A stretch of 40,573 nt of DNA from Candidatus Hydrogenedentota bacterium (GTDB lineage: Bacteria > Hydrogenedentota > Hydrogenedentia > Hydrogenedentales > GCA-2746185): NCBI GenBank assembly GCA_947486375.1, contig CANKTP010000006.1:1-40573 (forward strand), read 5' to 3'. The position numbers were made by a program, and so were the translations under genes. The notes under the pieces are model-generated. The model was not told where the DNA came from. It saw nothing but the letters and a program-made list of their open reading frames with translations, and searched no databases. Below are positions 13,301 through 34,738 of the stretch, one piece after another. Each line of letters starts with the position of its first letter. Position 1 is the stretch's first letter.

Positions 13301-13342
13301 CCGGACGCGGCGCCTTTCCAATATTGCTTCCGAGGAGGCCGC

Positions 13343-13402: not shown

Positions 13403-14956
13403 TTAGGCGACGTGCATCCCCGCCGAGAAGTTCCCGTGGAACCCGAGCGGGAAATGGTTCCCGGTCCAGACGCGGGCCTGGAATTCGAGGCTGCCGGCGT
13501 CGTTGATCTCGAGGTAGGTCTCGTCGCGCGCGCCGTCGTACCCGAGGGTCAGGAGCCAGCCGGCATCCTCGGCGTCCTTGCCGGGATGCGCCACGAAGAC
13601 CGTTTCGCCGTAGGTGCGGCCCTTGCCGGCGTCGATTTTCGCCGAGGTCTTGGTGGCAAAGTCATGGCGAACGATGCTCGGCACCGCCAAGGGATCGTCG
13701 GGAATCCCAGCGCCCGCCACATAAAGGTATTTCAGGTCTTCGCCGCTGCGGCGAATGTCGAAGCGAGGAAACTCCTGGTCCGCGGCGAACTCCGTCCGGC
13801 TCACCACGGCACCCGTGGCCGGATTCAACACAAGGCGCGTTGCCTTCGGGCCGGGGTACTCGGGGATGTCGTTGCCCGCGGACCATTTCGATAGCATGTC
13901 GAGGACGGTACCGTCGGGACTGAGGAAGGTATCCAGGACCAAATTCTCGCCCCACTCGAATGCGTTGCCGTTGTGAAATACCATGCTGGCCGGCTGCTCG
14001 ATTGTCACGGGTTTGCCGGTTCCGTCGCGCCGCATAATGACGAATCGAAGTGGTTCGTTCTCGAACCAACGCAGCGCCATCGCGGGGGTGGCCTTGCCGG
14101 AAAACATCTCGCCGACATTGAATCGAACGGGAGGTATCGCGAAGATCAGGTGTTCCTTGGACATGAACATGTCATGCACCATGAAATAGCCCTTCTGGGG
14201 AATCGAAAATAGTTGGGTCAGCTTTCCGTTCGGTTCCATCCGATACACCGTGAGGGCCATGGTGGGGCCTTGCATGACGCCGTAGGCATACATGTCGCCC
14301 GTATTGGGGTCGAATTTCGGATGGGCCGTGAAGGGCATTGACGCGGGCAAGGTCCCGTAAAAATCCCAATACCCGGCGAACGACAAGTCCTTGGGGTTGA
14401 TAGCCGTGGGATGCCCGCCTTCGGAAAGGCCGAGCAATCGCCCGTCGTAGGCGATGACGTTGACGCTCGGTTGGTTTTTCCCCTGGTATTTCGGTTTCGG
14501 GGCGCCTTCCGCGGCGGGCGGCGCGAGGGTGCCGAATTCGTTGTAGATCATCCGGCCCGCCGCGAGTTCCTCGAGTCGCTGGGGCGTCTCGACAAACTTT
14601 GCGCGGAGGCGGACCTTGCCGTCGCGAATGCTGTAGCCGGACACAAAGGCGTCGCCATCGAATAGGTGATTCAACGTGACCCCGAAGGTCTCCTTCTGGC
14701 CCGGGGCGATGCGATAGAGCGTCCCGTCGAGTTCCTTCGGAATGGCGCCCTCGATGTCGGCCAGATCCCAGACTCCTTCCGCCCCGGCGGCCCGGTTGGA
14801 CAGCCAACCCAGACGGCGTTTGTCCTCGGTCAATGCCATCGCGGCGGTCGTGCCGTCGATATATCCCAGCATTCCGAGCGCCGCCACCATGCGGCCGAAA
14901 TCGCGCCGCGTCAACGTGGGAAACTGGTTCAAATGGGCCAATGATTCAGGATTCAT
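13403..14956 (-). CDS. Carotenoid oxygenase family protein with Tat-type leader
   Basis: A 517-residue member of the carotenoid cleavage dioxygenase/RPE65 family, Fe(II) enzymes that split conjugated or stilbene-type double bonds. The four iron-binding histidines can be seen in FTAHPKFDPN (near 210), FMVHDMF (near 261), MVFHNGNAF (near 328) and GFHGNFSAGMH near the C-terminus. The N-terminus contains TRRDFGRMVAALGMLG, a twin-arginine-like signal, which would place the enzyme outside the cytoplasm. ATG at 14956 is chosen because AAGGAGG lies 6 bases upstream; the frame stays open 48 codons further. The substrate is unknown; no carotenoid biosynthesis gene is present in the window. Confidence 0.92.
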   Translation of the reverse strand: MNPESLAHLNQFPTLTRRDFGRMVAALGMLGYIDGTTAAMALTEDKRRLGWLSNRAAGAEGVWDLADIEGAIPKELDGTLYRIAPGQKETFGVTLNHLFDGDAFVSGYSIRDGKVRLRAKFVETPQRLEELAAGRMIYNEFGTLAPPAAEGAPKPKYQGKNQPSVNVIAYDGRLLGLSEGGHPTAINPKDLSFAGYWDFYGTLPASMPFTAHPKFDPNTGDMYAYGVMQGPTMALTVYRMEPNGKLTQLFSIPQKGYFMVHDMFMSKEHLIFAIPPVRFNVGEMFSGKATPAMALRWFENEPLRFVIMRRDGTGKPVTIEQPASMVFHNGNAFEWGENLVLDTFLSPDGTVLDMLSKWSAGNDIPEYPGPKATRLVLNPATGAVVSRTEFAADQEFPRFDIRRSGEDLKYLYVAGAGIPDDPLAVPSIVRHDFATKTSAKIDAGKGRTYGETVFVAHPGKDAEDAGWLLTLGYDGARDETYLEINDAGSLEFQARVWTGNHFPLGFHGNFSAGMHVA

Positions 14957-15096
14957 GATGGGGCCTCCTTGGGTTGCAGAAGTCAATTCTACCGGATTCT
15001 GACTGGCGTAATCCCGTGCGGGTTTTCGATATACATGGGGACTATCCATCGGTGTCATCGGTGGATTCCCATCGCGTGCAAACCGATCGATCCGCG

Positions 15097-15837
15097 TCAC
15101 GGAAGTTCGCGAATACGCAGTTCCTTAAATTCAACCGGCGACCCCTCGGATTCGAGCGCGAGATAGCCGGTGCTGGGCGTACATCCCGTCCCGCCCGAGA
15201 CTTCCTCGCCGTTTACCCAAAGTCGAACTTCGCCGTTGATGCAGCGGACGTAGTAGTGGTTCCATTCGCCAACGCCCTTGCTGAGATTCTTCGTGGGGAA
15301 GCTGCGCTTGCCATCAGGCGCGACGGGCGGGAAGGGTTTCATGTCGGAAGTCCCGACGGGGAACACGTCGCCGTTGGAGGTGAACCAGTCGGCTTTCTTT
15401 CCGGATTCTTTCTCGTACTTTTCGGTGTAGCCGTGGTCGAGCACCTGCACCTCGATGCCGTGCGGAAGTTTGTCGTGCCCGAGACCCTCGAGCGACGCAA
15501 GCGGCACCCAGACAAACACGCCCGAATTGCCTGCGGAGCGCATGTGCCGCCACTGCACGCATAACTCGAAGTTGGTCACCGTGTTCTTCGTCCGGATGAC
15601 CCCGACCGGGAGGCCCGTGCAGTAAATGGTCCCGTCTTTCCACGACCATGTGTCCGCGTCGCAATTGACGTTGACAAAGTCCTCTTGCCAGAGGGCGCGC
15701 CATCCAGGGCCTTGACCGTCGATAAAGGCCTTCGTGACCTCGCCCTCCGCGCCGAACGCCGGATCCACCACGGCGGACAAACACGCGAAGCCGAACAGCA
15801 TCGTCAAATAGGGGGGGACAATCCACAATTGTTTCAT
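15097..15837 (-). CDS. Secreted DUF1080 (3-keto-disaccharide hydrolase) domain protein
   Basis: A 246-residue protein with a signal peptide (MKQLWIVPPYL...FGAEG) and a single concanavalin-like DUF1080 domain. Family features are FELCVQWRHMRSAGNSGVFV, GIEVQVLDH, EWNHYYVRC, VRLWVNGEEV and GYLALESEGSPVEFKELRI. Characterised members hydrolyse 3-keto-glycosides; the family is greatly expanded in planctomycetes and Hydrogenedentes. ATG at 15837 is preferred: an upstream in-frame ATG at 15879 falls in the predicted -10 box and would be before the transcription start. It precedes the carotenoid oxygenase gene by 140 bases in the same direction. Confidence 0.87.
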   Translation of the reverse strand: MKQLWIVPPYLTMLFGFACLSAVVDPAFGAEGEVTKAFIDGQGPGWRALWQEDFVNVNCDADTWSWKDGTIYCTGLPVGVIRTKNTVTNFELCVQWRHMRSAGNSGVFVWVPLASLEGLGHDKLPHGIEVQVLDHGYTEKYEKESGKKADWFTSNGDVFPVGTSDMKPFPPVAPDGKRSFPTKNLSKGVGEWNHYYVRCINGEVRLWVNGEEVSGGTGCTPSTGYLALESEGSPVEFKELRIRELP

Positions 15838-15877
15838 CTCGATAAATCCGGGGGCCAAGGGGTTGGTTACGAGTTTC

Positions 15878-15906
15878 ATGATGCCCGTGCGCGGCAAGCT
15901 TGTCAA
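15878..15906 (-). promoter_or_regulatory. Candidate promoter of the DUF1080 gene
   Basis: On the minus strand a perfect TTGACA (15906-15901) is followed after 17 bases by CATCAT (15883-15878, four of six). The predicted start near 15871 leaves a short leader to the ATG at 15837. Confidence 0.5.
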
Positions 15907-17864: not shown

Positions 17865-18010
17865 TGCACTGCTACCCGCCAGAATCTTGTTTTCTTTCGC
17901 AGAAATTCACACGGCGAAAACTACTTCCCGGTGCGACGCCCGCGCTCGTTGGGGAGACTCTTGGCGAACCATATCAGACCCCGTGGCTACCATCCCTGCG
18001 TGAGAACTTG

Positions 18011-18106
18011 GGAACCACGAATGAACACCAATGGACACGAATGCCGACACCGTCCCACGCTGATGCAAAAGAATATTCGTGTCCATTGGTGTTCATTCGT
18101 GGTTCC
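18011..18106. repeat. Perfect 32-bp inverted repeat between convergent units
   Basis: GGAACCACGAATGAACACCA and the next 12 bases (18011-18042) are repeated exactly as the reverse complement at 18075-18106, with a 32-base spacer. It lies in the 397-base gap 17801-18197 between the metalloprotease gene (plus) and the permease operon (minus), so it could terminate both. The units are built from short words of the GTCCATTGGTGTTCATTCGTGG kind; a related tandem version lies at 40368-40412. Apart from this repeat and the hairpin at 17828 I see nothing else in the gap. Confidence 0.85.
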
Positions 18107-18197
18107 GTCCCAACCCAACGCAATACCGATATCTCGAATAGCAGGAGGGTATTCGTGTCAGTTCCGGATTTGGTTGCGGTAATGCCGCGCCGTTTTC

Positions 18198-21100
18198 CTA
18201 TCCCTTCGCGGCGACCACGAACGCGACGTCGTCCGCCTTCCTGTTTTCGTCCGACTTCTCTGTCCCGCCATCGTCCTTTTGGTTGCGCCCGATGCCGTAG
18301 ATCACGAATCCGCCGTCGCGAACGACGTATTTCACCGGCGTGGGCCTGCCCTCGGGCGCGTTGACGTCGGCCGGGACCTTGTCTATATACGCGGGCACAA
18401 GCTCTGCGAGCGTCGCGGGTAAACGGCCGTTGGTGCGGCGGAACTGTTCCGCGCCAAGGGCGGCCTGGGCCATGTCCAGCCGCATGCGGATGTTCCATTC
18501 GCTTTCGTAGGCGTTTCGCATGCCGCCCATGTAGATTCCCGCGAAGGGGGCCATGAAACGGCTTTCCTCGATGAGCCGACTCTCAAGACCGCCATAGGCG
18601 CCTTTTTGGACCGCATGAGGGTCCACCGCGAGGGTACTGCTGAAGTAGTAAATCATCACGATGCGCCCACCGGCCGAGGAAAACACAAGCCTCGACGCGA
18701 CCTCCGAGGGATGAACTGCCCGGGCGCTCGGATCCAAGGAACCCGGCCTTCCCTGTCCATCCACGAGGTCGGGCAAGCCGATCATCTCTGAGTACGCGAG
18801 GCTCATCGCAAACTCGGACTTCATGGCGGCCTCGAGCACCATGCCCTCCTCGACGGGCGGCAATGCGTCCGCGAGGGCCGTGCGCAGGCGGTCGAGGTCC
18901 CCGTCAGTGAGGGCCGCGCGGTTCATGAGGGTTTGCACACCATCCAGCGCCAACCGCGCCATGCCGAATCGCGTGAACTGCGAGATGAGTAGCGGCTCGG
19001 AAGCAAGCGAGGCCTGGAGGGGCAGTATGGCCAGCGTGGACTCGACCGCCTTGCTCGTGTCGCCCGCGACGGACCAATGGAGTGAATCGAGTGCAAGCTC
19101 GCGGCCTAGGGCTCCGATTTTCTCGAGATACGAAAGGTTCATGTTCCAGCCGTCCCGCACGTCGACCGGGTATCTGCCGGGGCGGGACCCCGCAGCGGCA
19201 ATGTTCACGAGGGCGGGCGCCACATGGGACGTGACCGCCGTCCAGTACTTCTCCGTCTCGTCCCAGACATTCTCGGGAATGGCGCCGGAATCGGGCACCT
19301 CGGCCTGGCCAACGATAAGAATGTTTTCACGTCTGAGGTAGTCGACTCCCGTAGCGCCACCATGGGCGTCGGGATAGAGAGTCTGAAAGTAAGCGTACCG
19401 GCCCTTGCGGGCAACATCGCCCGCGGCGAGGTAGTCCGACGCGACGTTTTCCGAATCGGGCAAGGATGCATACGAATCGTTTAGCGCCTTGAGCGACGGG
19501 GCGATTCCCCGTGCTTGCAGATACGCAACCGACGGCGACTCGGCGGGCCAGCCGAGCCAGGCGACAAAGAGGACCAGCGCGCCCGCCGTGGACAAGGTGA
19601 GCGGTCGCGGGGCGCTCTTCGTTGCGGACATCGAAGGCGCGTCCTGCACCGGGGTCGAATCGTGTCGGCGGCGCGCGATGTCGTGTATGAACGCCACATA
19701 GGGCAAGGGAATGAGCGACGCATAGACGAGACTGACGTGCAACTGGCTCCATGCGGCGGAGAAGCTCGAGGGCCACGGCAACGCGGCCCGCAAAAGCCAT
19801 GCGCTCAACAGCCACACGCAGCCCCACAAGACGATGGCGCGCGTCGACAGCAAACGCTTGCGCCATGCGTCGGCATATGCCGCGACGGCGATCCCAACGG
19901 CGGCGAGTAAGAATATCCAGTACGAGAGAAATAGAGCAATGTCAGGCGATTCGGAGCGTGTAAAGACGATATCGTCCACGATCAATACGGCCACGGGGAT
20001 GCAGATTCCGGCCCCCACGAATGCCAGGACTAGCCGCGTTCCCACGGCCATCAGCGGCCACGCAACCAGCGCAACGAGAATGCCGCGGCTCAGCAGGACC
20101 CACGCGATTTCGCGCACGCTTGCCGCGCCGGAGTTGTAGGCGAACGAGAGGATCTTCGTGACGAAGCCGGTTCCGGAAAGGCCGAAATGCAACGCCAACA
20201 CCAGGAACACCGTGGGGATGAGCACGATGAGGTTCGTCAGGATTTTTGCCGTCGCATAGTCCTGCGTGGACATCGGCCGGAGGTACTCGAAACCCGCGCG
20301 TCCCGACGGACGCTTCAGCGCAATCGCGCTCGTGGCCCCGGCGTGGCATATCGCCCCCGCGAGCAACGCGATGAATGGCAAGACCCCGGCGATGCCCACC
20401 GCGTCTTGCTCGGTGTATAAGCCGACGGGAATGCACATCAACAACCAGAGGCCCACGGTGGCGGTGGGCAGTATCCACCCCTTGCGCCGCAGCTCGAACC
20501 AGACCTGCGCCGCGATGGGCGACGAGAATGCGGCGCGAACCGCGGTCGCCCCGTCGCCGATGCCCATGCGGCCCGGCAACTCCCACAACTCCGGAATCCC
20601 CACGCGGCGGCCCACCCGCGTGGCGTTCACCGCGACAAGCGACACGCCGTAGGCCGTGGGCAAGAGCACGGCGGCCATGACGGCATACGCGCCGGAGACG
20701 GAGGCATCGGCCGCCGCAAACTCGCGCGCGATTTCCTCAACATTCGCGAACACCAGGAACAACGCGCCGGCCACCGCAATGGCAATGAAACTCGACAGGC
20801 CCGACACCGGCGCGCGAAGCCAGTCCGCGGTTTGCGCGACCAGGTAAAGCACGACAAACATAAACGCCAGCGAGAGCACCGGCCCTTCCGTGAAAAGCGC
20901 ACGCGTCGCCACCAATAGTATCGATGTCGCCGCGAATACGAGCAACGTCCGCGCAAGCAGCGACACCGCAACCGCGATATGCGTCGGTACCGGCAACCAC
21001 AACACACGCCGCGAGTATCCACCGGAAAGGTGGCCCGCATTGTTCGGATTCAGGATCAACAACAGCCCGATAAGCGCCGGCGCGGCCACGACGAACAGAA

Positions 21101-21251
21101 TCAAGCCCCCTTCGTTCCGCCCCCATGCCTCCACGCCCAACACCGCGCGCAGTTCACCGAGAAACAGCAACGCGAACACGACGCACGTCGCCGCAATCGC
21201 CCCGCCCACGCGGAACTCTTCCCAGACTAGCGCCCGGACTTTTGTGCTCAT
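18198..21251 (-). CDS. ABC-2 permease-like double-half membrane protein with pseudopilin-like tail, copy A
   Basis: A 1,017-residue membrane protein, third of three tandem paralogues. Residues 1-560 contain two permease-like halves, each opening with a similar word (LVWEEFRVGG near 9; QVWFELRRKG near 255) and carrying a later similar word (GHLSGGYSRRVLWLPVPT; AGFEYLRPMSTQDYA). This suggests internal duplication and a full permease in one chain. After a further membrane helix (about 565-590) a soluble helical domain follows (PDSGAIPENVW, VTSHVAPALV, HWSVAGDTSKAVE, EPLLISQ), and the last 100 residues resemble a pseudopilin tail (EQFRRTNGRLPATLAELVP). It is the last gene of the GntR/ABC operon. 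AAAGGA lies 8 bases before the ATG. What it transports is unknown. Confidence 0.75.
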   Translation of the reverse strand: MSTKVRALVWEEFRVGGAIAATCVVFALLFLGELRAVLGVEAWGRNEGGLILFVVAAPALIGLLLILNPNNAGHLSGGYSRRVLWLPVPTHIAVAVSLLARTLLVFAATSILLVATRALFTEGPVLSLAFMFVVLYLVAQTADWLRAPVSGLSSFIAIAVAGALFLVFANVEEIAREFAAADASVSGAYAVMAAVLLPTAYGVSLVAVNATRVGRRVGIPELWELPGRMGIGDGATAVRAAFSSPIAAQVWFELRRKGWILPTATVGLWLLMCIPVGLYTEQDAVGIAGVLPFIALLAGAICHAGATSAIALKRPSGRAGFEYLRPMSTQDYATAKILTNLIVLIPTVFLVLALHFGLSGTGFVTKILSFAYNSGAASVREIAWVLLSRGILVALVAWPLMAVGTRLVLAFVGAGICIPVAVLIVDDIVFTRSESPDIALFLSYWIFLLAAVGIAVAAYADAWRKRLLSTRAIVLWGCVWLLSAWLLRAALPWPSSFSAAWSQLHVSLVYASLIPLPYVAFIHDIARRRHDSTPVQDAPSMSATKSAPRPLTLSTAGALVLFVAWLGWPAESPSVAYLQARGIAPSLKALNDSYASLPDSENVASDYLAAGDVARKGRYAYFQTLYPDAHGGATGVDYLRRENILIVGQAEVPDSGAIPENVWDETEKYWTAVTSHVAPALVNIAAAGSRPGRYPVDVRDGWNMNLSYLEKIGALGRELALDSLHWSVAGDTSKAVESTLAILPLQASLASEPLLISQFTRFGMARLALDGVQTLMNRAALTDGDLDRLRTALADALPPVEEGMVLEAAMKSEFAMSLAYSEMIGLPDLVDGQGRPGSLDPSARAVHPSEVASRLVFSSAGGRIVMIYYFSSTLAVDPHAVQKGAYGGLESRLIEESRFMAPFAGIYMGGMRNAYESEWNIRMRLDMAQAALGAEQFRRTNGRLPATLAELVPAYIDKVPADVNAPEGRPTPVKYVVRDGGFVIYGIGRNQKDDGGTEKSDENRKADDVAFVVAAKG

Positions 21252-21274
21252 GAGGCTCGTCCTTTCATCGCGTC

Positions 21275-21414
21275 CAAAGTGGAAGCGTCACGCCCTGGCG
21301 TGATTTAGACCCTGTCCAACGTCTATCCCTTGCTTGGTCGCCACGCGACGCCATCCACTGCTGTTTCGACGTCCTGGCGTAACGCTAAAGCGGCGAGACG
21401 CCGCTTCCACTTTG
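21275..21414. repeat. REPIN/BIME-like inverted-repeat element a
   Basis: The element begins CAAAGTGGAAGCG (21275-21287) and ends with its exact reverse complement CGCTTCCACTTTG (21402-21414). Each arm also contains its own short hairpin: TCACGCC/GGCGTGA on the left, GCGGCG/CGCCGC on the right. It fills the gap between copies A and B and runs into the end of copy B, encoding its last residues. Confidence 0.8.
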
Positions 21415-24400
21415 CGCCGCCCCACCGACCTCGAACACAATGTCGTCGGCTTCACGCTTCGACCCCGCAAATCCCCTTGGACCGTCGTCCACGTACACGT
21501 GATCGTCCGAATCCACGCCGCGATCGTCCAACTTGTCGGTCCCGATGCTATAGATGACGAACGAGCCATCGTCGTCGGCTCGATACTTCACCGGAAGGCC
21601 GCTACGTGTATAGACGTCGACGGGAATACTTGGTAGATAGTCCGGAACTAACTCCGATAGGTCAAGGGGAAGGCGACCGTTGGCCCGGCGGAACTGTTCG
21701 ACAGCAATGCCCGCCCGCGCCATTCCAAGTTTCATCGTCAAACGTCGCGTCAGTTCGGCGGTTACCCCTTGCTGCTGCTCCATGGAAGTTATCAACCACG
21801 GGTAAGGAATTCCCCCCGCTCGATGGTTTCCGTCTCCGTTGTCAGCTCGCTTGTTTCCGTAGACAGCCCATCGGTTTCTGTAGAAGGCATCGATGGATGA
21901 CGCGGAACGCCCCAGGGGATCGTCGCCTAGCACACTCCATGAGGCGCTATAAACCATGAGCATTTGTTGGCTTGATATCGGACGTGACAGGCCCGACAGC
22001 ACCCACGATGGATCAAACCAAGGCGCTCGCATACCGATTTGATTGCCCGAAGGATTGAGGCCAACATCGTCGAAAAATGAAATCTGCATCATGCATGCGC
22101 CGCGAAGCGCATCTAGCATCGTCTCGTCCCGCTCGAAGGACGCATCAAGCCGGGCGAACCCATCGCGGAGTCGCGCTAACTCGCCGTTGGTTAGGCTGGC
22201 CCGATTCATGATGGTTTGCAGCGACTCGATGGCGATGTTCTCGGCCATTCGAATTCGGACCAACTGCGACAGGAGGAACGGGTCCGCTTCGAGTGCTTCC
22301 TGCAGGACCAACGTCGCAAGCGTCGAATCCACCGCCTTGGCCGAGTCTCCCGCCACCGCCCAATGCAAGGCGTCCAACTGCATCTCTTCCGCCAGATACC
22401 GGAGCCGTTCGATCTGCGGGCTTTCCGACTCCTTCAGAATAAATCGATTGTGTTGCGGCTGGACCGCGACGACGGCGATCACTTCCGGCGCAATGTGCGA
22501 CGTCACCTGTTCCCAATACAATTCGGTCATTAGCCAAACACGATCAGGGATCGGACTAACGTCTGGGAGCGAGGCTAGGCCCCGGATCAGGACAAAGTCT
22601 ATCGGGTGGGGAAGCGGGTCTCCATCCTCGTCAAGTACGAATGGATCCGGCACATTTCTCTTTTCGAAAATCACGGCAAGCCGGTTCCCCTCCACCGCCG
22701 CCGCCGAGTATTTCGATGCCAAGTTGAGCTTCGCCGGGACCTCCGGGTATCGCGCCGCCTGTTCGGCCCAAGTAGACGGAAGGCCCCGTTCGCGGAGGTA
22801 GCCCTTGTACGAAGGCTCCGTCGGCCAGCCCAGCCATAGGATTGTGGCGACGATTATCCCCGTCGCGACCCATACACGGGCACGATGCGCCGGGGTCGCG
22901 GCGGCCTTGGGGGCATGGCCGAGCAAAGAAGAGTCTTGCGCGACGGTGGCCCCGTGCCGGCGCAAGGCGATATCGAGCGTCAGGGCCGCGAAGGGGAGCG
23001 GCACAAGCGAGGCGTATCCGAGGCACACCAAGGCCTGGCTAAGGATCCCAATTGGTGTGGACGGGGCGAGCAGTCCGCCGCGGATTAGCCACGCCACGAG
23101 GAACCACGCGAGGCACCATGCGCCGATGGCCCGCGCGGTAATCAAGCCCTTGCCCCACGCATAGGCGTACGTCCCGGCAGTGAGCGTGGCTGACGCGATC
23201 CCGAACACGAGGAAAACGGGTGGAAAGACGGTCTCTATCGTGGAGTCGCCGAGGGCGAACAGGACGCCCATCGCCGCCGTGGGCACGAACACGGCGGGCA
23301 GCCATGCCGAGCGAAACACGCGCGTGCCGATGACCATGAGACCCCATGCGGGCAACGCGACGAGAATGCCCCGGCCGATGAAGAGCCACACGAACTCGCG
23401 AACGCCATCAAGGCCCAGGCCGAACGCAAAGGGGACCAACGCGAGGGGAAACCGATCGATGACCATCGCGTAATGAATCGCAAGAACAAGGACACACGAA
23501 GGAACGAGAATGAGGAGATTCGCGAACACCCTCGCCCCGGCGAACTGCGCGCTCGTGAGGGGTTGTAAATACGAGAACCCGGCAAGTCCGACCGGCTTCC
23601 GGAATCCCACCACCCGCGTGCGCAATCCATGTATCGCGGCCGCGAGCAACAGCGCCGGGAACGGCAGAAACGAAATCGGCGTCCACGATCCCTTCGGGTC
23701 GTATAACCACAACGGCGCCGATACCAGCGCCCAGATGGCGACCGTCGCGACGGGAAGGGTGTTCCCGGCGCGCTGTACCTCGAACCAAGTCTGCGCGGCC
23801 AAGGGTGACTGAAAGATGCGGTCGGCCCGGACCCGCTCCGGCATCAAGCTGCGGCGCCACTCCCAGATTTCGGGAATTCCCGTGCGGCGTCCCAGGCGCA
23901 CCGCATGGACCGAGTAAACGGATACACCGTAGATCAGCGTCCCGGTCAACGCCGTCGCCAATGCAAGCGTCCATGTCCCGCCGCCCGCGCCGAGCGTCCA
24001 TAGGCGCTCGCTGAACTCTGCAAAATCCAAGAACCATAAGTTGACTGCGGTCCCCCACGCCGTTTCCCGGTGATAGACAGCGGCCCCGACCAATTGCGTG
24101 GCCACCAAGACCAGTAGAAATGCCGCGATGACCAGCATGAGGCTTGTGATTCCCGAAACCGCGCCGCGAAGCCATTCGACGCCCTGCACGACCAGGTAGA
24201 ACATCACGAACAGCGGCACCATGAACAGGCCGGGCCCGTCGACATACATCTGGCGCGTGGTCATGAGGAGGATCGCGGTTGCCGCACCCAACAGCAAGGC
24301 CCGGACGCCGAGCGACACCGCCACCGTCATCCACGTCGGGACCGGCAACCACAACACCCGCCGCGAATACCCGCCCGAGAGGTGCCCCGAGTTGTTCGGA

Positions 24401-24603
24401 TTGAGCACCAGCAACAGTGACACGAACAGCGGCACGCCCAGCACCAGCGGCGTCACTAGTTCATCGATGTTCCCCCACGCCTCCGCCCCGAGCACCCATC
24501 GCGATTCGACGATGCAGATCACCCCGAACATCGCGCACACCGCCGCGATCGCCCCGCCCACGCGGAACTCTTCCCAGACTAGCGCCCGGACTTTTGTGCT
24601 CAT
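21385..24603 (-). CDS. ABC-2 permease-like double-half membrane protein with pseudopilin-like tail, copy B
   Basis: A 1,072-residue paralogue of copies A and C with the same order of parts. The first 21 residues are identical in all three (MSTKVRALVWEEFRVG...). It has the first-half word GHLSGGYSRRVLWLPVPT, the second-half words TWFEVQRAGNTLP and AGFSYLQPLTSAQFA, then the soluble part (PIPDRVWLMTELYWEQVTSH, HWAVAGDSAKAVDS) and the pseudopilin-like tail (EQFRRANGRLPLDLSELVP, SFVIYSIGTDKLDDRG). It differs from the others by an extra acidic stretch before the end (VDSDDHVYVDDGPRG) and by a repeat-encoded C-terminus, QSGSGVSPL, that reads into element a. AAAGGA lies 8 bases before the ATG. Confidence 0.75.
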   Translation of the reverse strand: MSTKVRALVWEEFRVGGAIAAVCAMFGVICIVESRWVLGAEAWGNIDELVTPLVLGVPLFVSLLLVLNPNNSGHLSGGYSRRVLWLPVPTWMTVAVSLGVRALLLGAATAILLMTTRQMYVDGPGLFMVPLFVMFYLVVQGVEWLRGAVSGITSLMLVIAAFLLVLVATQLVGAAVYHRETAWGTAVNLWFLDFAEFSERLWTLGAGGGTWTLALATALTGTLIYGVSVYSVHAVRLGRRTGIPEIWEWRRSLMPERVRADRIFQSPLAAQTWFEVQRAGNTLPVATVAIWALVSAPLWLYDPKGSWTPISFLPFPALLLAAAIHGLRTRVVGFRKPVGLAGFSYLQPLTSAQFAGARVFANLLILVPSCVLVLAIHYAMVIDRFPLALVPFAFGLGLDGVREFVWLFIGRGILVALPAWGLMVIGTRVFRSAWLPAVFVPTAAMGVLFALGDSTIETVFPPVFLVFGIASATLTAGTYAYAWGKGLITARAIGAWCLAWFLVAWLIRGGLLAPSTPIGILSQALVCLGYASLVPLPFAALTLDIALRRHGATVAQDSSLLGHAPKAAATPAHRARVWVATGIIVATILWLGWPTEPSYKGYLRERGLPSTWAEQAARYPEVPAKLNLASKYSAAAVEGNRLAVIFEKRNVPDPFVLDEDGDPLPHPIDFVLIRGLASLPDVSPIPDRVWLMTELYWEQVTSHIAPEVIAVVAVQPQHNRFILKESESPQIERLRYLAEEMQLDALHWAVAGDSAKAVDSTLATLVLQEALEADPFLLSQLVRIRMAENIAIESLQTIMNRASLTNGELARLRDGFARLDASFERDETMLDALRGACMMQISFFDDVGLNPSGNQIGMRAPWFDPSWVLSGLSRPISSQQMLMVYSASWSVLGDDPLGRSASSIDAFYRNRWAVYGNKRADNGDGNHRAGGIPYPWLITSMEQQQGVTAELTRRLTMKLGMARAGIAVEQFRRANGRLPLDLSELVPDYLPSIPVDVYTRSGLPVKYRADDDGSFVIYSIGTDKLDDRGVDSDDHVYVDDGPRGFAGSKREADDIVFEVGGAAQSGSGVSPL

Positions 24604-24626
24604 GAGGCTCGTCCTTTCATCGCGTC

Positions 24627-24755
24627 CAAAGTGGAAGCGTCACGCCCCAGCGTGATTTTAGAATGTCCGATAGTTACACCCATGCTCGGTGTCCGAAAAC
24701 GGCCCGGTTGCCGAAGGTTGCCTAAATCACGCCGTGGCGTGACGCTTCCACTTTG
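24627..24755. repeat. REPIN/BIME-like inverted-repeat element b
   Basis: This copy has the most symmetric arms. CAAAGTGGAAGCGTCACGCC (24627-24646) and its continuation GCGTGATTTTAG are mirrored at 24722-24755, with only a few mismatches over about 35 bases. The outer 13 bases are identical to those of element a. The centre (about 60 bases) is not obviously shared with elements a and c. It fills the gap between copies B and C and ends three bases before the stop of copy C. Confidence 0.8.
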
Positions 24756-24757
24756 GG

Positions 24758-27700
24758 TCAATTCCGCGCGGCGACCTCGAACGCGATATCGTCGCTGCCC
24801 CGATTCTCCGGCGAATGCTCCATACCGCCGTCGTCCCGTCCATTTCGCCCGATGCTGTAGATTAGGAAAGAGCCGTCGTCCCGGGTTGTCATTTGGACGA
24901 ACGATTCCGTAGGGGCATAGATGTCCAACGGCACGGCATCGAGGTAGGCGGGCACTAAATCGGCGAGTCGCGCAGGAAATCGTCCATTTGCGCGACGGAA
25001 CCGCTCGACAGCGATCGCCGACCTGGCCATGCCGAGCTTCATTCGTACGTGCCACTCGCGGACGTACTCGTTCTCGATACGCGGCAAGTAGATGCTGGAC
25101 AAGATCGAGAAGATGGACATCGAAGCATCGAACTTCTCTTCCAAGTTTTCCAGTCGAGCCCGGCGGACCGGCGATATTTTTTCCGCAATATCCATCGATT
25201 GGACGATTGGGTAAACTGCGGACAAAAAATCCCCATTCGATGGAACGAATGGTAGAGCGGCAATCTGTATCGGACGCACAATATCCTTGGCGCCGTCATC
25301 TTCCGAATCGTCCAACCAGATCGTATTCTTGTAGTTGTCAAAGTAGAGTACGTACTCGGAAAGCAACGCCTCTCCGATCTCCTTGCCCCCGGCGTATGGG
25401 GGAAGGATTTTGTCCAACGCATCGTTGAGACGGGCAAGTTGCGCATCCGTGAGGTTGGCGCGCGTCATCAAGACACCGACAGAGTCTACAAAACCGGACG
25501 CCAGCGAATTCCGAACCTGCCCCGCCGAGTAGCGCAGCGGTTCGCGGACCAGCGAAGCGCATAGCGGCAACAGCGACATTGCCGACTCGACGGCCTTTCC
25601 GCTCTCCCCCGTTATGGAGCGGAATGCCACGTCCAACTCCAATTCGGAACGGAGGGCCGACAATTTCCCAAGGTGCGACATATTAAACTCTCCATTTTCG
25701 GAGGGATCAATGGGGTACCGGCTTGGATCGCCGCCTTTCGCCCCAAGTTCAACGAGCGCTGGCGCAATCTTGGAGGTGACGCGGGTCCAATATGTCTCGG
25801 TCGCACCCCAGACGTCATCGGGTATCGGGCCCGAGCCGGGCATCTCGGTATCGCCGACAATGAGGATGTGGGTATCTGCCGAGAATTGTATACGCCGTAG
25901 TGAGGCGTCTCCGCCGGATTCGGGCAAATCTAGGCCGAGGAACTGGGCTTGTAACGCGTCCAATCGACGGGAAATCGCGAGATAGTCCAACGCAACATTC
26001 TGGTTCTCCGGTACCTCGGGATAGGAGGCATTCAGTTCTTCGGCGGTTACGGGAATACCCTGTGCCCGGAAGTAATCCCAATAGGCAGGCTCCGCGGGCC
26101 AGCCCAGCCACACAGCGGCAGCCGCTCCGAGAGCGACGATACCCCGCGAATAAGGAATTGCCTTGCCATCCGGTTGGGCCCCGCTGATGCTGTCTTGGAC
26201 TGGGACCGTGCTGTGGCGTTGGCGGGCGATGTCGATAAGGAACGATACGTATGGCAAGGGCATCAGCGCCCCGACTCCCAGGCAGATGACTGATTGCGTG
26301 ACCAGTCCCATGACGGTCGACGGCCACGGAAACGCCGCCCTTATCAGCCAGGCGCACAGCAGCCAGACCAAGCCACAAGTCGCGGCATGATGCCAGGTCA
26401 GCAGACGTTTCTTCATGGCATATGCAAATACCGCGAACGACCATGTCGTAGTAGTCGCCAATAAGATCCAGTCCGCAGCGTTGGCAAAAACGTTCTTGGT
26501 CTCTCCGATCATCAGGGTCGCCGCGTTATCTACCAGCGACACTAACACGTCAACGAGCAATAGGGTCGAGACACAGCGCGTGCCAGCGGACATGACAACC
26601 CAGGCGATCATTCCGACGACGAAGCATCGACCGAGGAATATCCAGGCGAACTCGCGTGCATCGGTCATCCCGGATCCCCACGCGAACGGAATGACCTCGG
26701 TGCGAAATACCGTCCCGGTGGTCCAGAAATGCAGGGCCGCCGCAAGCGCGAGCGCGGGAATCAAGACTATGGCGTTCGTCAAAACTTTTGCCAGCGCGTA
26801 ATCCGCGGTGGACATTGGCCTGAGATACTCGAAACCAGCCTTTCCCATCGGCGTTCCGAATCCGGAAACATAGGTGACAGCGGCATGAGGAAAAGCGGCG
26901 ACAACGAGCGCGATATACGGGATGAACACAACTAGCATTCCAGCCGTATTCCGGCCCAACACCCATAGGGGGATGTACATCAAAAGCCCGATTCCAACCG
27001 CGGATACCGGGTAGACCCAACCGCGACGGCGCAGACCGAACCATATCTGGGCGGCCACAGGAGACGAGAAGGCCCTGATCCTGCCTTCCCAAGGTAGCGA
27101 AATTCGGTCCGGCCATTCCCAAATCTCAGGAACGCCCACGCGCCGTCCGACTCGAGTGGCATACACCGCCGCGACCGACATGGCATACGCCACGGGAATC
27201 GCTAGGAGCGCCACGATGATCGCCGGAAACCAGGCCACTTCGGCCAACGAGAAAACCTGCTGGATTTCATGGACGCGCACATATGCCAGCGAATACACCA
27301 GCCCTAAAAAAATGCATAGGCCGGCCAGGCTACTCAATCCAGAGACCGGTGCGCGGAGCCAATCGAATACCTGGGCGATCAGGTACATCATGAGGAAGCC
27401 CAGCGCAAGGGCGAGGCTCGGCCCGCCTTCGAAAAGGCCCCGGGTGACCCCCAACATCACGAACGCCACAGTAAGAACAAGCAAGGAACGCACACATAAT
27501 GGGACCGCCACGGCAAGCGGTGTTGGCACGGGCATCCACAAAATGCGCCGCGCGTAACCTCCCTCAAGATGTCCGGAATTATTCGGGTTCAGGACTAACA
27601 ATAATCCAATGGCAATCGGGCCCGCGATCGATGCAATGGCGAGCCACTCTTCCCCATTGACCCAGGCTTCCGCTCCCAATACCCAGCGGCATTCCACCAA

Positions 27701-27790
27701 GAACAACACGCCCATCACGGAGCACAGTGCGGCGATCGCCCCGCCCACGCGGAACTCTTCCCACACCAGCGCCCGGACTTTTGTGCTCAT
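24758..27790 (-). CDS. ABC-2 permease-like double-half membrane protein with pseudopilin-like tail, copy C
   Basis: A 1,010-residue paralogue and the first of the three to be transcribed. The first half has GHLEGGYARRILWMPVPT, the second half IWFGLRRRGWVYP and AGFEYLRPMSTADYALAK. The soluble domain contains PIPDDVWGATETYWTRVTS and FRSITGESGKAVESAMSL, and the tail contains ERFRRANGRFPARLADLVP and SFLIYSIGRNGRDDGG. The pseudopilin-like tail is a module seen by eye in many planctomycete-type proteins; its function outside true pseudopilins is unknown. It lies 160 bases after the ABC ATPase gene, separated by repeat element c. AAAGG precedes the ATG by 8 bases. Confidence 0.75.
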   Translation of the reverse strand: MSTKVRALVWEEFRVGGAIAALCSVMGVLFLVECRWVLGAEAWVNGEEWLAIASIAGPIAIGLLLVLNPNNSGHLEGGYARRILWMPVPTPLAVAVPLCVRSLLVLTVAFVMLGVTRGLFEGGPSLALALGFLMMYLIAQVFDWLRAPVSGLSSLAGLCIFLGLVYSLAYVRVHEIQQVFSLAEVAWFPAIIVALLAIPVAYAMSVAAVYATRVGRRVGVPEIWEWPDRISLPWEGRIRAFSSPVAAQIWFGLRRRGWVYPVSAVGIGLLMYIPLWVLGRNTAGMLVVFIPYIALVVAAFPHAAVTYVSGFGTPMGKAGFEYLRPMSTADYALAKVLTNAIVLIPALALAAALHFWTTGTVFRTEVIPFAWGSGMTDAREFAWIFLGRCFVVGMIAWVVMSAGTRCVSTLLLVDVLVSLVDNAATLMIGETKNVFANAADWILLATTTTWSFAVFAYAMKKRLLTWHHAATCGLVWLLCAWLIRAAFPWPSTVMGLVTQSVICLGVGALMPLPYVSFLIDIARQRHSTVPVQDSISGAQPDGKAIPYSRGIVALGAAAAVWLGWPAEPAYWDYFRAQGIPVTAEELNASYPEVPENQNVALDYLAISRRLDALQAQFLGLDLPESGGDASLRRIQFSADTHILIVGDTEMPGSGPIPDDVWGATETYWTRVTSKIAPALVELGAKGGDPSRYPIDPSENGEFNMSHLGKLSALRSELELDVAFRSITGESGKAVESAMSLLPLCASLVREPLRYSAGQVRNSLASGFVDSVGVLMTRANLTDAQLARLNDALDKILPPYAGGKEIGEALLSEYVLYFDNYKNTIWLDDSEDDGAKDIVRPIQIAALPFVPSNGDFLSAVYPIVQSMDIAEKISPVRRARLENLEEKFDASMSIFSILSSIYLPRIENEYVREWHVRMKLGMARSAIAVERFRRANGRFPARLADLVPAYLDAVPLDIYAPTESFVQMTTRDDGSFLIYSIGRNGRDDGGMEHSPENRGSDDIAFEVAARN

Positions 27791-27812
27791 GACGTCAACC
27801 TTTCATCGCGTC

Positions 27813-27948
27813 CAAAGTGGAAGCGGCGTCTCGCCGCTTTAGACCGCGTCCAATGACAACGTCCTACTCGTTCGACCCGCATCACCGTCATCCAATGTTT
27901 CGACGATTCGACGTACCTCTAAAGCGGCGAGACGCCGCTTCCAATTTT
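27813..27948. repeat. REPIN/BIME-like inverted-repeat element c
   Basis: The left arm CAAAGTGGAAGCGGCGTCTC (27813-27832) continues into GCCGCTTTAGA, and the right arm (about 27919-27948) mirrors it with a slightly decayed outer end (CGCTTCCAATTTT). Each arm folds on itself as AAGCGGCG/CGCCGCTT around TCT. The inner sequence shares GTCCAA and GTTTCGACG with element a at similar positions. It separates the ABC ATPase gene from copy C. Confidence 0.75.
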
Positions 27949-27950
27949 CG

Positions 27951-28868
27951 TCACGCCACCGCCTCGCCGCTTCGGGCGCCGGTTACTCGCGCGACGAACA
28001 CGGCGTCGAGCGAGGGCGTCGATTCTTCAATGATTTTGCCGCCGATGGCCTCGAGCGCCTGGCGCGTGGCGGCGGCGTCGCCGTGGCTGACGACGGCCCA
28101 TTCGCGGCCTTCGCCCTCGACGTGGATGACGCCGAAGGCCTCGGGGAACGCATCGAGGTCCTTGCCGAACTCGACGATTCGCCGGTGGTGCGTCGCGCGG
28201 ATTTCGTCCATCGACATGAGCAACGCGAGTTTGCCCGCATGGATCATCGCGACATCGTCCGCGACGCGCTCGACTTCGTCGAGCAGGTGCGACGAGAACA
28301 CGACCGTCCGGCCTTCCTCGGCGACGGAACGGATGACGACGGCGAGGATCTCGCGCCGCGCGACGGCGTCGAGGCCGGACGAGGGTTCGTCGAGCAGCAA
28401 CACGGGCGGCTTGTGCGACAGCGCCACGAGCAAGCCGGCCTTGGCGAGTTCTCCGCGGGACAGCGCGCGAATCTTTGCGTTCGGGTCGAGCCGGAGTTGC
28501 CCGAGCATGCGCTCGGCGTAGGCCTGGTCCCAATCCGGGTAGAAGGCCTGGGTGTAGCGGAGCAATTCCTTGATGCGCATCCACCGGGGCATGTCGCGGT
28601 CCTCGGAGACATATCCGATCTTGGACAGCAGCGTGGCGGGGTTGCGCGTGGGCTCGATCCCGAGCACGTGGACGCTGCCCTGTTGCGGCGTGAGCGCGCC
28701 GAGCAGGTGCTTCATCAGCGTCGTCTTGCCCGCGCCGTTTTCGCCGACGAGGCCGAAGACCCGCCCGGGGCGGACCTCGAAGCTGACCCCGTCGAGCGCG
28801 ACCTTTTTGCCGAAGTGACAGCTCAGGTTGCGTACCGCGATGATGGGTTCCGTTCCTTGCTCATTCAT
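27951..28868 (-). CDS. ABC transporter ATP-binding protein
   Basis: A 305-residue ATPase of the ABC-2/drug-export type. Visible motifs are Walker A GENGAGKTT (near 43-51), a signature written LSRGE instead of LSGGQ (near 136), Walker B VLLLDEPSSGLD and the switch histidine in VVFSSHLLDEVE. A C-terminal tail of about 80 residues follows. It powers export through partner permeases; the only candidates nearby are the three paralogous double-half permeases downstream. Its ATG overlaps the GntR stop (ATGA), so regulator and ATPase are coupled. The order GntR then ABC matches YtrA-type operons. Confidence 0.95.
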   Translation of the reverse strand: MNEQGTEPIIAVRNLSCHFGKKVALDGVSFEVRPGRVFGLVGENGAGKTTLMKHLLGALTPQQGSVHVLGIEPTRNPATLLSKIGYVSEDRDMPRWMRIKELLRYTQAFYPDWDQAYAERMLGQLRLDPNAKIRALSRGELAKAGLLVALSHKPPVLLLDEPSSGLDAVARREILAVVIRSVAEEGRTVVFSSHLLDEVERVADDVAMIHAGKLALLMSMDEIRATHHRRIVEFGKDLDAFPEAFGVIHVEGEGREWAVVSHGDAAATRQALEAIGGKIIEESTPSLDAVFVARVTGARSGEAVA

Positions 28869-29290
28869 ACTTGGGCTCCTTCTTCGTTCGCGTTCTCGCG
28901 CGCAGTCTCGCGCCGCAAGTCGCGGTCACATTCCATCACGAGTTTGACGATTTTGTCCGCATCGAATCCGAGGTGGCGTCCCTCGACAAGCAGCGCCTCG
29001 ATGCGCTGGCCGAGAATTCGCCGGCACTCCTCGTCGGTGTAGGGCGTCCCCTTGGCGGAGACATAGGTCCCCGCGCCGCGACGTTTGTAGACAAGCCCGG
29101 CCACCTCGAGCTCGCGGTACGCGCGAACCACCGTGTTGGGATTGATGACCAACTGCTGGGCCAGCACGCGGACGGGGGGTAATTCGCTGTCGGGACGGAC
29201 TCTTCCAGTGGCGATCAGGTGCTTAAGCTGTTGCACCAATTGGAGATAGAGGGGGACGCCGTCGCCGGGGTTGATGGAGAGATGGAGCAT
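28865..29290 (-). CDS. GntR family regulator, YtrA type
   Basis: A 141-residue regulator. An N-terminal winged helix is visible (PLYLQLVQQLKHLIATG, LPPVRVLAQQLVINPNTVVRAYRELE, GLVYKRRGAGTYV), followed by a short helical C-terminus without a ligand-binding domain of the FadR or HutC kind. This is the YtrA layout, whose members usually repress an adjacent ABC transporter operon and often respond to envelope-active compounds. It is the first gene of the operon, overlaps the ATPase gene, and a perfect palindrome overlaps its promoter. GAGG lies 11 bases before the ATG. Confidence 0.92.
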   Translation of the reverse strand: MLHLSINPGDGVPLYLQLVQQLKHLIATGRVRPDSELPPVRVLAQQLVINPNTVVRAYRELEVAGLVYKRRGAGTYVSAKGTPYTDEECRRILGQRIEALLVEGRHLGFDADKIVKLVMECDRDLRRETARENANEEGAQV

Positions 29291-29321: not shown

Positions 29322-29347
29322 TATTGTGTCGAAACTGTAACACAATA
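29322..29347. promoter_or_regulatory. GntR (YtrA-type) operator palindrome
   Basis: TATTGTGT (29322-29329) and ACACAATA (29340-29347) are perfect 8-bp inverted arms separated by ten bases. The -10 box of the operon lies within the spacer, so a bound dimer would block RNA polymerase. AT-rich arms stand out in this GC-rich DNA. Confidence 0.7.
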
Positions 29348-29362
29348 CGAAGGCCTTGTCAA
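29334..29362 (-). promoter_or_regulatory. Promoter of the GntR/ABC/permease operon
   Basis: On the minus strand TTGACA (29362-29357) is followed after exactly 17 bases by TACAGT (29339-29334, four of six). It lies about 45 bases before the GntR ATG and is overlapped by the operator palindrome. Confidence 0.7.
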
Positions 29363-29411: not shown

Positions 29412-32400
29412 TCAGCCTCGCGACCTAATCATCATGGGGCGTCGTAGACCCGTCGCCAACAGGCCAAGCGCCGCACCCATCAGAATGACCAAGTCCCCGG
29501 CGGAGCCGACAGGGCCTCGTGTCTCCGCGCCGGAAGCGGAAGCGTTGCAGGTCACGAACCGGGACGCGACCTCGATCGTGACGGTCCTGCTCTCGGACAA
29601 GACCGGGTCGCCGTTGTCGGCGGCCTTAAACGTCGGCGTGTAGGTACCGATTTGGGCTGGCACCCACAAAAACACGCCCGTGGCCGCATTGAATATGGCG
29701 CCGACCGGCAAGTCCGTGACGCTCAGCGTCACCGTATCGCCGACGTCCGCGTCGGTTGCCGACACATGAAACTCCACCAAGTCGCCGGTTTGGACGCTTC
29801 GGCCCTCGGGCACGACAAATAGGACCGGCGTGTGATTCGCTTCTCCCTCTCCCTCGCCTTCTCCCTCGCCTTCTCCCTCGCCCTCGCCTTCTCCTTCGCC
29901 TTCGCCTTCACCTTCAGATGCGCTTGCCTGAATCACGTTGATCTGTTTTGGGCTGCCGTTAGCGCCGGGGGCCGTCACCTCGATGCCGCCACTGCGGATT
30001 TCCCGCGTGGAGGTATTTTCGGTGTAGGACACGGTGATGGTCCCGTTTCCGGATATTTTCGCGGTGGTGACGGTCAACCAATCTTGGCCGGTGGTCACCA
30101 ACGCGCTCCATTCGAGGGAGCCCGAGCCGGCGTTGGTCACCTGGACCGGGGTCGAGCCGGCAGCCGCGCTGAGGTTCAAGAGGGAAGCCGACACGGTGAG
30201 CACGGGCGCGGATGTCCGGGCTTGGGTCACGAGGATCGTGAAGGGCGCGTTGTCCGCCTGATCGCTATCGAGGGTAATCGCGCCTTCGCGCACGCTCGTG
30301 AGCGTGTTTTCCTCGTAGGTCACGGTCAGCATGCCCGGACCAAGTACAGGCCCACTGGAAACCGAAAGCCAGTCGCCGCCGGCGCTAACCGATGCCGTCC
30401 ATGCGAAGGTACCGGCGCCGTCGACGAAAATCCCGGTGCTGCCGGCCGCCGGAGGGACGAACAGGTCCTTGCGTTCGGGAAACAGCCAGGCCGTTCCGAA
30501 GGGCGCCAGCTCGAAATCAGCGGTCGCCGTCCCCCCGCCCGCCAGAATCGATGCGGTGATCAATCGGGGGTAGTGCCCCGGCGCCTGCGCGGTCAGGTCA
30601 TATTCGCGCGCCGGCAACTCCTCGTGGAGGTAGTCGCCCGAGGCATCGGCGACGGCCGGGACATTGCCAAAGTTCGTCAACAGGACCGTCGCGCCCGCCA
30701 ATTCTTCATGGGTGACGATGTCCCGCACGGTCCCGCGGATGCTCCCGAGCGGCTCGCCGTTTTGGCGCGTCACGGTCATCAACTTGGGCATGGAAACGGA
30801 GTAATCGTCGCGGCTCGAGGCCGTCACGGCCACGCGATAGGCGCCCGATTGCTGGAACCCGCCGAAGGCCGCCTCGAACACGGTTCCTCCGCTCGCCATG
30901 AGGTCGAATGATGGAAGATTGATAATGGGGACAGGCACCGCGAAATTCTCGACGGTTGGCGGAAAGACCACCGCGGCGACCCGGCCGAGCCTGCCGGTCG
31001 TGGTCACGTACTCCGCGCGCACCACGGCCGAGGAAGAGGCCGGCAGCGAAATCGAGGAGGGCAGGCCGCGCACCAGGGGCGTGTCTTGCGCGAAGCGAAG
31101 CCCGGACTGAAATCGCTGCGCCCGGGCGCGGTTTCCGTCGGTGGGCCCGTTCGGTTGCCCGTCGCCATCGTCGTCGATCGCGGGGCGCTGCTCGCTTCCC
31201 GTGGCGGCGAGGGCCCCGCCGGCGAACGCGAATGCGTCGAAGACCGTGTACCCGTCGAGGGCCCTTGACCAGAAATAGCGGGAGAAGGAGATGTCCCCGT
31301 CCAGCGCGAACATCGCGGATGCGTCGCCGAGGACGCTCGCGATCACGGTGCGGCGGTCCGAGGCCAAGGGTCCGATGAAACTGCCCGAGGCCGGAGCATC
31401 GTATATTATCGTCACGCGGATGGGCGCGCCGGGGCCGGCCCCTTCGTCGAGCGCGTCCTCGAGGGCATCGAGGATTCCGTCGAGCGCGTCCGCGGCCAGG
31501 TCTTCCTCGGGCCCAATTCGGAAAATACCCGGGGCGCCGTCGCCCACCAAATAGACGACCACGTCCGTCGTGTTTTCGCCATTCCATCCGGCCACGCCCG
31601 CCTCGAGCGCGTCGAACGAACCATGGCCGTCGAACCCGTGTTCGCCGTCGCCGGGAACGCGCGGAGTCAGGAAAAGAATGTCGTCCTCGCGGTATCCGCG
31701 CAGGATCAAGGCATCGTAGGCCCGTTCGCTTGCGTTTGACACCGCCGGCCAATGGCTGTCGCGGGTCGATCCGCCCGCCAACACGATTGCCCTGGCCACT
31801 GGCGGGGCGCCCGATACCTGGACCGATTTGGTCCGGGGCCATCCCGAGTAGCCCAGCATGTCGATCGGGATCAGGGACACGTTATAGGTACCGCGCATGG
31901 TGAAGCCCGCGTAGGCCCGGCTAAACACGCCTCCCCCTGGACCCTCGTCCGTGGCGTCGAGATCGAACACGTCGACGGCCTGCACGGGCCGGTAACTCAC
32001 GTAGGGATTGCGCAACTGCGCGCGATCGGGTCCCGGGGGCACTATCGACGCGATCACCCGGGACACCCCGTCGGTGTCCGTGGCGGTGCCTTCAATCGTG
32101 GCCGTGGTTGCCCCGCCGGTGTCCAATGGAATCGAACTTACGACGGCATCCGGGAGATCTCCCAGGGCCTTGTTCCCCGCGCCGATAAAGGTGCGTCCCG
32201 CCAGGGCATCGTCTTCCCGATCCTCCAACAGGGGAGATTGGACCGAGATGGTCGCGCGGACCTTCTCGTAGGCCTCGAGTACGGTGCGCCCCTGGGACAC
32301 CTGGCCCCAAAACACCCGCGAGAAGTTCGGGCCTTCGCTGGGAAACCACGCCCGCTCGGTCGAGGCGCTCGAAATAACGATGCGGTCGCGGCCCGCGGGG

Positions 32401-33821: not shown

Positions 33822-33824
33822 TTA
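33822..33824 (-). other. In-frame TAA that splits the NHL protein gene
   Basis: The codon lies in the phrase LIA-stop-WGTRG, where a sister NHL repeat reads LVAQWGGEG. A Gln codon CAA changed to TAA by one base (33824) explains it. The reading frame is unchanged on both sides. Confidence 0.8.
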
Positions 33825-34643: not shown

Positions 34644-34738
34644 GAGACTCGACTCCAATTTGCGCCCGGACACCCGTCACGCGGCGATGATATCACACGA
34701 CATTACTCCCCTATAATGTCCGGAATTTCGACCCGCCG

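Follow-up and report, generated by a model that had tools for sequence, protein, structure and literature searches.

The described systems closest to the operon reported here include transporters with a regulator of their own. In Staphylococcus, the phenol-soluble modulin exporter (genes pmtA-D) is repressed by PmtR, a GntR regulator of the YtrA type that is encoded upstream of it and leaves the pmt promoter on meeting the exported peptides (PMC5080381). In Bacillus subtilis, the GntR repressor YtrA controls an operon with the type V ATP-binding cassette (ABC) transporter YtrBCDEF (PMC7828314, PMC11466899). The ytr genes react to cell-wall antibiotics, loss of YtrA leads to a thicker wall (PMC7828314, PMC8060467), and one repressor of the YtrA type has a palindromic binding site at its own promoter (PMC6746942). 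In other type V exporters, namely AlbCD, EcsAB and YthPQ, a single polypeptide supplies both membrane domains and is paired with two copies of one ATPase (PMC11466899), and 12 transmembrane (TM) helices are predicted for the partner system of Rv1218c (PMC7761784). We compared with these systems an operon in the window, by which we mean the whole stretch analysed, the entire 40,573-base contig C6 of a Candidatus Hydrogenedentota genome (label G000; 3.8 Mb in 253 contigs). The operon encodes one GntR regulator, one ABC ATPase and three long paralogues, P3, P2 and P1, each joining a permease to a module that is predicted to lie outside the membrane.

We read this operon as a set of ABC-2-type (type V) exporters controlled by a YtrA-type repressor of its own, with three alternative permeases and the module on the outer face, and we consider this reading reasonably probable. 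The gene order, with GntR first, one ATPase gene next and the three permeases last, is well supported. All five open reading frames (ORFs) were found on the minus strand, where an earlier reading of the sequence alone (the sequence-only reading) had placed one regulator and one ATPase followed by three paralogues of 1,010-1,072 residues (Table 1). The GntR and ABC genes overlap by 4 nt, and the spacers 5' of the permease genes are 160, 154 and 133 nt long. That the five genes form one system was then a supposition, which is now backed by a conserved linkage and a common promoter-operator.

The operon resembles PmtR-PmtABCD in having a YtrA-type GntR upstream of a transporter and in that PmtA is the nearest NCBIfam model of its ATPase, but Pmt comprises four genes, whereas here one ATPase accompanies three long permease-module fusions. 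With YtrA-YtrBCDEF it shares a GntR-type regulator and an operon for a type V-like ABC transporter. However, Ytr has two ATPases, the separate membrane proteins YtrC and YtrD, and YtrF, with no duplicated chain, module or tandem array. Two ATPase genes with separate membrane proteins, as in YtrBCDEF and PmtABCD, were not found in this operon of one ATPase and three fused permeases. The likeness to AlbCD, EcsAB and YthPQ, and perhaps to Rv1217c-Rv1218c, lies in the fusion of both membrane domains, and Rv1218c matches ATPase residues 9-292; no large C-terminal extracytoplasmic module or multi-permease array is described for these exporters in the literature searched.

Permease chains and the fused module

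Over their full length, P1, P2 and P3 are 40-46% identical. None of them has a Pfam match at E up to 1 or an NCBIfam match of any weight, and a PDB sequence search with their full-length profile returned noise only. PADLOC matched the fusions to no known anti-phage defence system, and a role in anti-phage defence was rejected on this ground. By hydropathy, P1 has 14 predicted permease TM helices, arranged as 6 + 8 around a charged loop of ~51 amino acids, then a fifteenth helix at 550-568 and 449 further residues to the C-terminus. The separate TM anchor was also seen in P2, and that of P3 fell just under the threshold.

The permease looks like an internal duplication of an ABC-2-like unit, with two half-permeases per chain. 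Its halves align with each other at an hhalign E of 1.6e-9 (58 sequences including relatives without the module; reversed controls 0.08 and 0.14), a repeat that would fit two membrane domains per complex. With 17 sequences the in-register alignment was weak (E 0.011), and it was the addition of the module-less relatives that turned the repeat from suggestive to significant. Against a profile of ABC-2 permeases the second half gave E 7.6e-4, with 0.13 and 0.48 for the reversed controls, and in the earlier 17-sequence alignment the weak ABC-2 match sat on P-M-S-T-A-D-Y-A-L-A-K against P-L-R-D-R-D-I-V-F-G-K of ABC-2. Two separable halves are further supported by 836-amino-acid genes that consist of the second permease half and the module only (loci L026, L053 and L054); no GntR-ABC pair lies beside those in L053 and L054, and L026 is a short contig. 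Given such a duplication, one chain could supply both membrane domains to an ATPase dimer, and the arrangement resembles that of type V exporters whose membrane domains are fused, with AlbCD, EcsAB and YthPQ as precedents.

Each module comprises ~440 amino acids behind the extra TM helix, which is predicted to place it outside the membrane, in keeping with the large and probably extracytoplasmic soluble domain proposed earlier. In P3, residues ~545-1010 run from the TM anchor through a helical region to a terminal head. An AlphaFold2 (AF2) model of the module reached a predicted local distance difference test score (pLDDT) of 74.0 and a predicted template modelling score (pTM) of 0.78, and its Foldseek comparison with the PDB gave weak helical-repeat matches only, none significant. 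The last ~95 residues resemble the head of GspG, the major pseudopilin of type II secretion: the best PDB matches of the tail profile were seven GspG entries (2kep, at E 1.4e-4, and six further entries), and Pfam T2SSG matched 4 of 15 family members (best E 1.9e-4). The head also carries a conserved Y-S-x-G...D-D-x-G...D pattern, in what we take to be the region where GspG binds calcium. The pseudopilin-like tail of the sequence-only reading is therefore real in its head domain. It is not a true pseudopilin, however, as P1-P3 have no prepilin signal motif with its N-terminal hydrophobic helix, and in these chains a permease and a helical module precede the head.

The module also occurs outside the fusions. 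Lone, anchored module proteins of ~460 amino acids are encoded on contigs C64 and C19 of the same genome, where the module, with a GspG-like head, also forms the outer part of a Hanks-type Ser/Thr kinase (L073:5790-8216, G000:C91). A second tail similar to that of the kinase lies at the end of contig C123 (L114). In loci L089, L090, L093, L036 and L065 the module is a gene of its own beside a permease of ~525-610 amino acids (split into two ORFs in L065). What is fused here is thus encoded side by side in other genomes, an argument that permease and module work together.

Regulator, candidate operator and distribution

The assignment of the regulator and the ATPase to the GntR and ABC families is certain from their protein sequences. 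The regulator is classed in the YtrA subfamily, whose members have ~120-140 amino acids, by its length of 141 amino acids, its short C-terminal domain and YtrA-like matches along most of its length, including the PmtR model (E 5.7e-14, residues 11-115) and the short PDB regulators 3neu, 3by6, 4r1h, 4ham and 2du9 (across 107-121 residues). The ATPase has intact Walker A (GENGAGKT), LSRGE signature, Walker B, D-loop and H-loop motifs, and looks like the nucleotide-binding domains (NBDs) of ABC-2, ABCA and PmtA proteins. Its nearest PDB sequences were ABCA NBDs and Rv1218c, the PmtA model matched at E 9.3e-46 (156 bits, below the cut-off of 350), and GldA was among the nearest models. A second ATPase of the same genome, 55% identical (L113:11500-14110, G000:C61), is followed by a 576-amino-acid permease, with no GntR and no module, and an AMP-binding ligase adjoins.

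Long palindromic operators at the repressor's own promoter, typically ~24 bp, are a trait of the YtrA subfamily, and the operon appears to share it. A candidate operator, TGTGTTACAGTTTCGACACA, lies over the -10 box of a sigma-70-type promoter upstream of GntR, in a palindrome of 26 nt with 8/9 pairs. The operon is probably self-regulated through its own YtrA-type repressor. The derived pattern TGTRTTANNNTNTYRRYACA had a single match in the whole genome, which predicts a one-operon regulon. Across genomes it returned 47 rows, corresponding to 42 distinct sites in 33 of 67 genomes, and the control gave one match. Among the 30 sites fetched, 28 sit 28-66 nt before a GntR gene with ABC next, one has its GntR on the opposite strand and one is cut by a contig end. 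A palindrome over the -10 box upstream of GntR is a recurring arrangement throughout the phylum. The further operons found through the pattern carry 1 to 4 permeases of ~500-600 amino acids, with 12-16 predicted TM helices and no fused module, and the fused triplet is therefore one branch of a phylum-wide GntR-ABC-permease family. Such operons can be found with this pattern by DNA search even where the permease goes unrecognised. At L181:2446-9499 (G018:C1), four tandem permeases with no recognisable fused module follow one GntR-ABC pair, the fourth being cut by the end of the stretch.

Within the lineage the permease profile matched 39 of 68 genomes, against 0 of 318 outside; as far as searched, this permease type was found only in Hydrogenedentota. 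The head domain alone is wider, with 60 of the 68 genomes inside the lineage and 41 outside. Relatives with names were nearly all Candidatus Hydrogenedentota (Hydrogenedentes) metagenome-assembled genomes, together with two entries named 'uncultured bacterium' and one labelled Rhodothermaeota. A contig scan built on the three paralogues alone found no relatives, its patterns being genome-specific, and with 16 relatives added relatives were found. Literature searches returned no description of this system in Hydrogenedentota.

The sequence-only reading had called for a survey of gene linkage and copy number in relatives. Every fused locus with enough upstream sequence begins GntR-ABC (20/20: the window, L040, L041, L042, L044-L050, L055-L060, L064, L067 and L068), such that the linkage is conserved in every intact fused locus checked. 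Most loci have one fused permease, the window and G014 have three, G059 at least three and G049 at least two, and G038 and G053 have two permease-module pairs after one ABC. The three-copy array in the window belongs to a pattern seen throughout the phylum, in which one GntR-ABC pair goes with 1-4 tandem permeases, with or without the fusion. The same reading had held that the architecture matches no known ABC system. This stands insofar as Pfam, NCBIfam and PADLOC searches gave no curated family covering the fusion, and no established family with the full architecture was found. The system is less foreign than supposed, however, with its YtrA-type GntR, ABC-2/ABCA/PmtA-like NBD and apparently duplicated ABC-2-like permease.

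Apart from the GntR, ABC and permease-module genes, no neighbour is found at more than 4 loci; a few families occur at 2-4 loci each, and DUF1559/N-methyl proteins are scattered. Next to such operons, proteins that match DUF1559 and carry a prepilin-type N-methylation motif are encoded at L091:4711-5616, L094:6917-7891 and L041:11928-12821, with a fourth relative in L051. A redoxin/thioredoxin-domain protein is encoded between two permease-module gene pairs of one operon (L089:6930-8309, G038:C116).

Triplication, leaders and surroundings

In a tree among 26 relatives, P1-P3 form a single clade (support 98/94) in which P1 and P3 are sisters (99/96), and the triplication therefore arose within this lineage. 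The triplets of G014 and G059 are placed elsewhere in the tree and are independent of that in the window.

The three paralogues share near-identical leaders. A stretch of 27 nt before the start codon is identical in P1, P2 and P3, and over the 99-nt leader-plus-start block P1 agrees with P2 at 99% identity (their proteins are 40% identical) and P2 with P3 at 93%. Measured at shared residues, codon identity is 0.74-0.95 over the first 21 codons and mostly 0.3-0.5 in the long windows that follow. Protein constraint as the sole cause of the identical N-termini was rejected, because codon identity itself drops after the first 21 codons. P1 is sister to P3 yet has a leader closest to that of P2, suggesting that gene conversion or leader exchange among the paralogues is likely. 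Two tandem copies in G014 (L056) show similar leader sharing.

All three spacers ahead of the permease genes also contain a long inverted repeat, with arms of 30-35 nt and predicted energies of -75 to -85 kcal/mol. The stem sequences differ among spacers but still pair (AAGCGGCGAGACGCCGCTT vs TCACGCC..GGCGTGA), like paired repetitive extragenic palindrome (REP) or bacterial interspersed mosaic elements (BIME). These repeats may have helped duplication and could affect co-transcription. The genome has three Y1_Tnp genes, and two further loose matches to one inverted-repeat arm.

Table 1. Coordinates of the operon and its associated features in the window
Feature	Position	Strand	Details
Promoter	29325..29362	-	-35 TTGACA 29357-29362, 17-nt spacer, -10 TACAGT 29334-29339; sigma-70-type; overlapped by operator
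Candidate operator palindrome	29325-29344	-	upstream of GntR, overlaps -10 box
GntR regulator, YtrA subfamily	28865..29290	-	141 aa; PF00392 E 2.3e-15
ABC ATPase	27951..28868	-	305 aa; PF00005 E 3.8e-26
Long inverted repeat, ABC/P3 spacer	27814..27947	-	
Near-identical leader block of P3	27729..27825	-	leader, ribosome-binding site, ATG, first ~21 codons
Paralogue P3	24758..27790	-	1010 aa; permease 26165-27790; TM anchor and predicted extracytoplasmic module 24758-26164
GspG-like head, C-terminus of P3	24761..25051	-	tail profile and Pfam T2SSG
Similar inverted repeat, P3/P2 spacer	24626-24756	-	
Leader block copy, P2	24541-24639	-	
Paralogue P2	21385..24603	-	1072 aa; permease 22906-24603; module 21385-22905
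GspG-like head equivalent, P2	21415-21744	-	
Similar inverted repeat, P2/P1 spacer	21274-21414	-	
Leader block copy, P1	21189-21287	-	
Paralogue P1	18198..21251	-	1017 aa; permease 19614-21251; module 18198-19613
GspG-like head equivalent, P1	18201-18494	-	

Just downstream of P1, a perfect 32-nt inverted repeat with a 32-nt loop (18011-18106) possibly marks the end of the operon. Rfam miRNA families reported at 18010-18107 scored far below their gathering scores and were rejected, as they are explained by this repeat. Elsewhere in the window, 29412-33806 encodes a 1464-amino-acid NHL-propeller/BACON protein with a GEGEGEGE linker, adjoined by an NHL protein at 33822-34673. Downstream of the operon (11876-13321 and 13403-15906) are a polysaccharide flippase-like protein, an RPE65-type carotenoid oxygenase and a 3-keto-disaccharide hydrolase domain protein.

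Proposed transport model and alternatives

As an exporter set, the operon would work as follows. Two ATPase copies, forming a homodimer, would dock on one permease chain, and P1, P2 and P3 would be three alternative complete transporters with different specificities and one shared motor. The sequence-only reading had allowed for alternative or cooperating permeases; the alternative arrangement is the likelier and the cooperating one less so, because each chain appears to hold both half-permeases. The module with its GspG-like head would contact substrate or envelope on the outer face, where it would gate or receive what is moved. As substrate or envelope damage builds up, GntR would leave the operator and all parts would be made together. 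By analogy with PmtR/PmtABCD and YtrA/YtrBCDEF, the cargo would most likely be amphipathic, lipid-like or cell-wall-active compounds.

Several results weigh against this reading. The first permease half alone gives no significant match to the ABC-2 profile, neither Pfam nor NCBIfam has an ABC-2 model that recognises any of the permeases, whether fused or single, and the second half has ~8 predicted TM helices instead of 6, making the duplication inexact. The AF2 model of the permease (17 sequences) is moderate, with pLDDT 75.7 and pTM 0.62. Its top Foldseek folds were NosY (probability up to 0.95), CcmB (0.80) and ABCG5/8 (0.6), none with a significant E-value, those to NosY being 0.83 and worse. 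The occurrence of the module in a kinase and by itself in lone proteins would suit a sensor no less than a transporter. A linked cargo gene is absent from the recurrent neighbours, and nothing points to a direction of transport. Finally, a subset of these very loci supplied the operator pattern, whose recurrence among them is partly by construction; the independent part of this evidence is the pattern's genome-wide rarity and the further GntR-ABC operons to which it led.

Some of these results would suit a machine that transports nothing and uses ATP hydrolysis to move the outside module, which in turn acts on cell-wall or secretion components, as in mechanotransmission by FtsEX or envelope assembly by NosDFY, CcmAB or GldFG. 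NosY and CcmB head the fold matches, the models closest to the ATPase include GldA, the helical module ends in a secretion-type head with no conserved cargo gene nearby, and a redoxin gene stands between the two permease-module pairs of L089. We nevertheless think this rather unlikely given the 12-14 TM helices in a duplicated ABC-2 arrangement; moreover, many sister operons keep the GntR-ABC-permease core with no module nearby, and the core therefore does something without it. A sensor complex seems to us a weaker prospect still; in it the module would be a receptor whose occupancy the ABC part detects and passes on to the regulator, much as Bce-type transporters signal to their kinase. Such a complex would account for the module on the Ser/Thr kinase and for the most divergent P2/P3 stretch (codons 726-876, 20% identical) falling within the module, but the regulator is a one-component GntR with no kinase linked to the operon, and most module proteins in relatives are without a recognised signalling domain.

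The GspG similarity, including the Y-S-x-G...D-D-x-G...D pattern, would also be expected if the permeases or tails belonged to type II secretion or a pilus-like fibre, with the tail incorporated as a pseudopilin. The missing prepilin signal already disfavours this; in addition, about 15 TM helices and then the helical module come before the C-terminal head, and the recurrent neighbours include no secretion genes, which leaves a fibre very improbable. A bolder variant of assembly, to which we give little credence, is that the duplicated ABC-2 permease drives an outside scaffold with a GspG-like, possibly calcium-binding head that assembles or remodels a Hydrogenedentota-specific envelope structure. 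The paralogous permeases would then swap on the shared motor, constituting a new class of ABC machine.

The operon brings to light a lineage-restricted ABC permease family in an uncultured phylum that is not recognised by the family libraries searched. Its permease appears to unite two ABC-2-like half-domains with a predicted extracytoplasmic module common to a Ser/Thr kinase, and the array provides a test case for how one ATPase serves several permeases.

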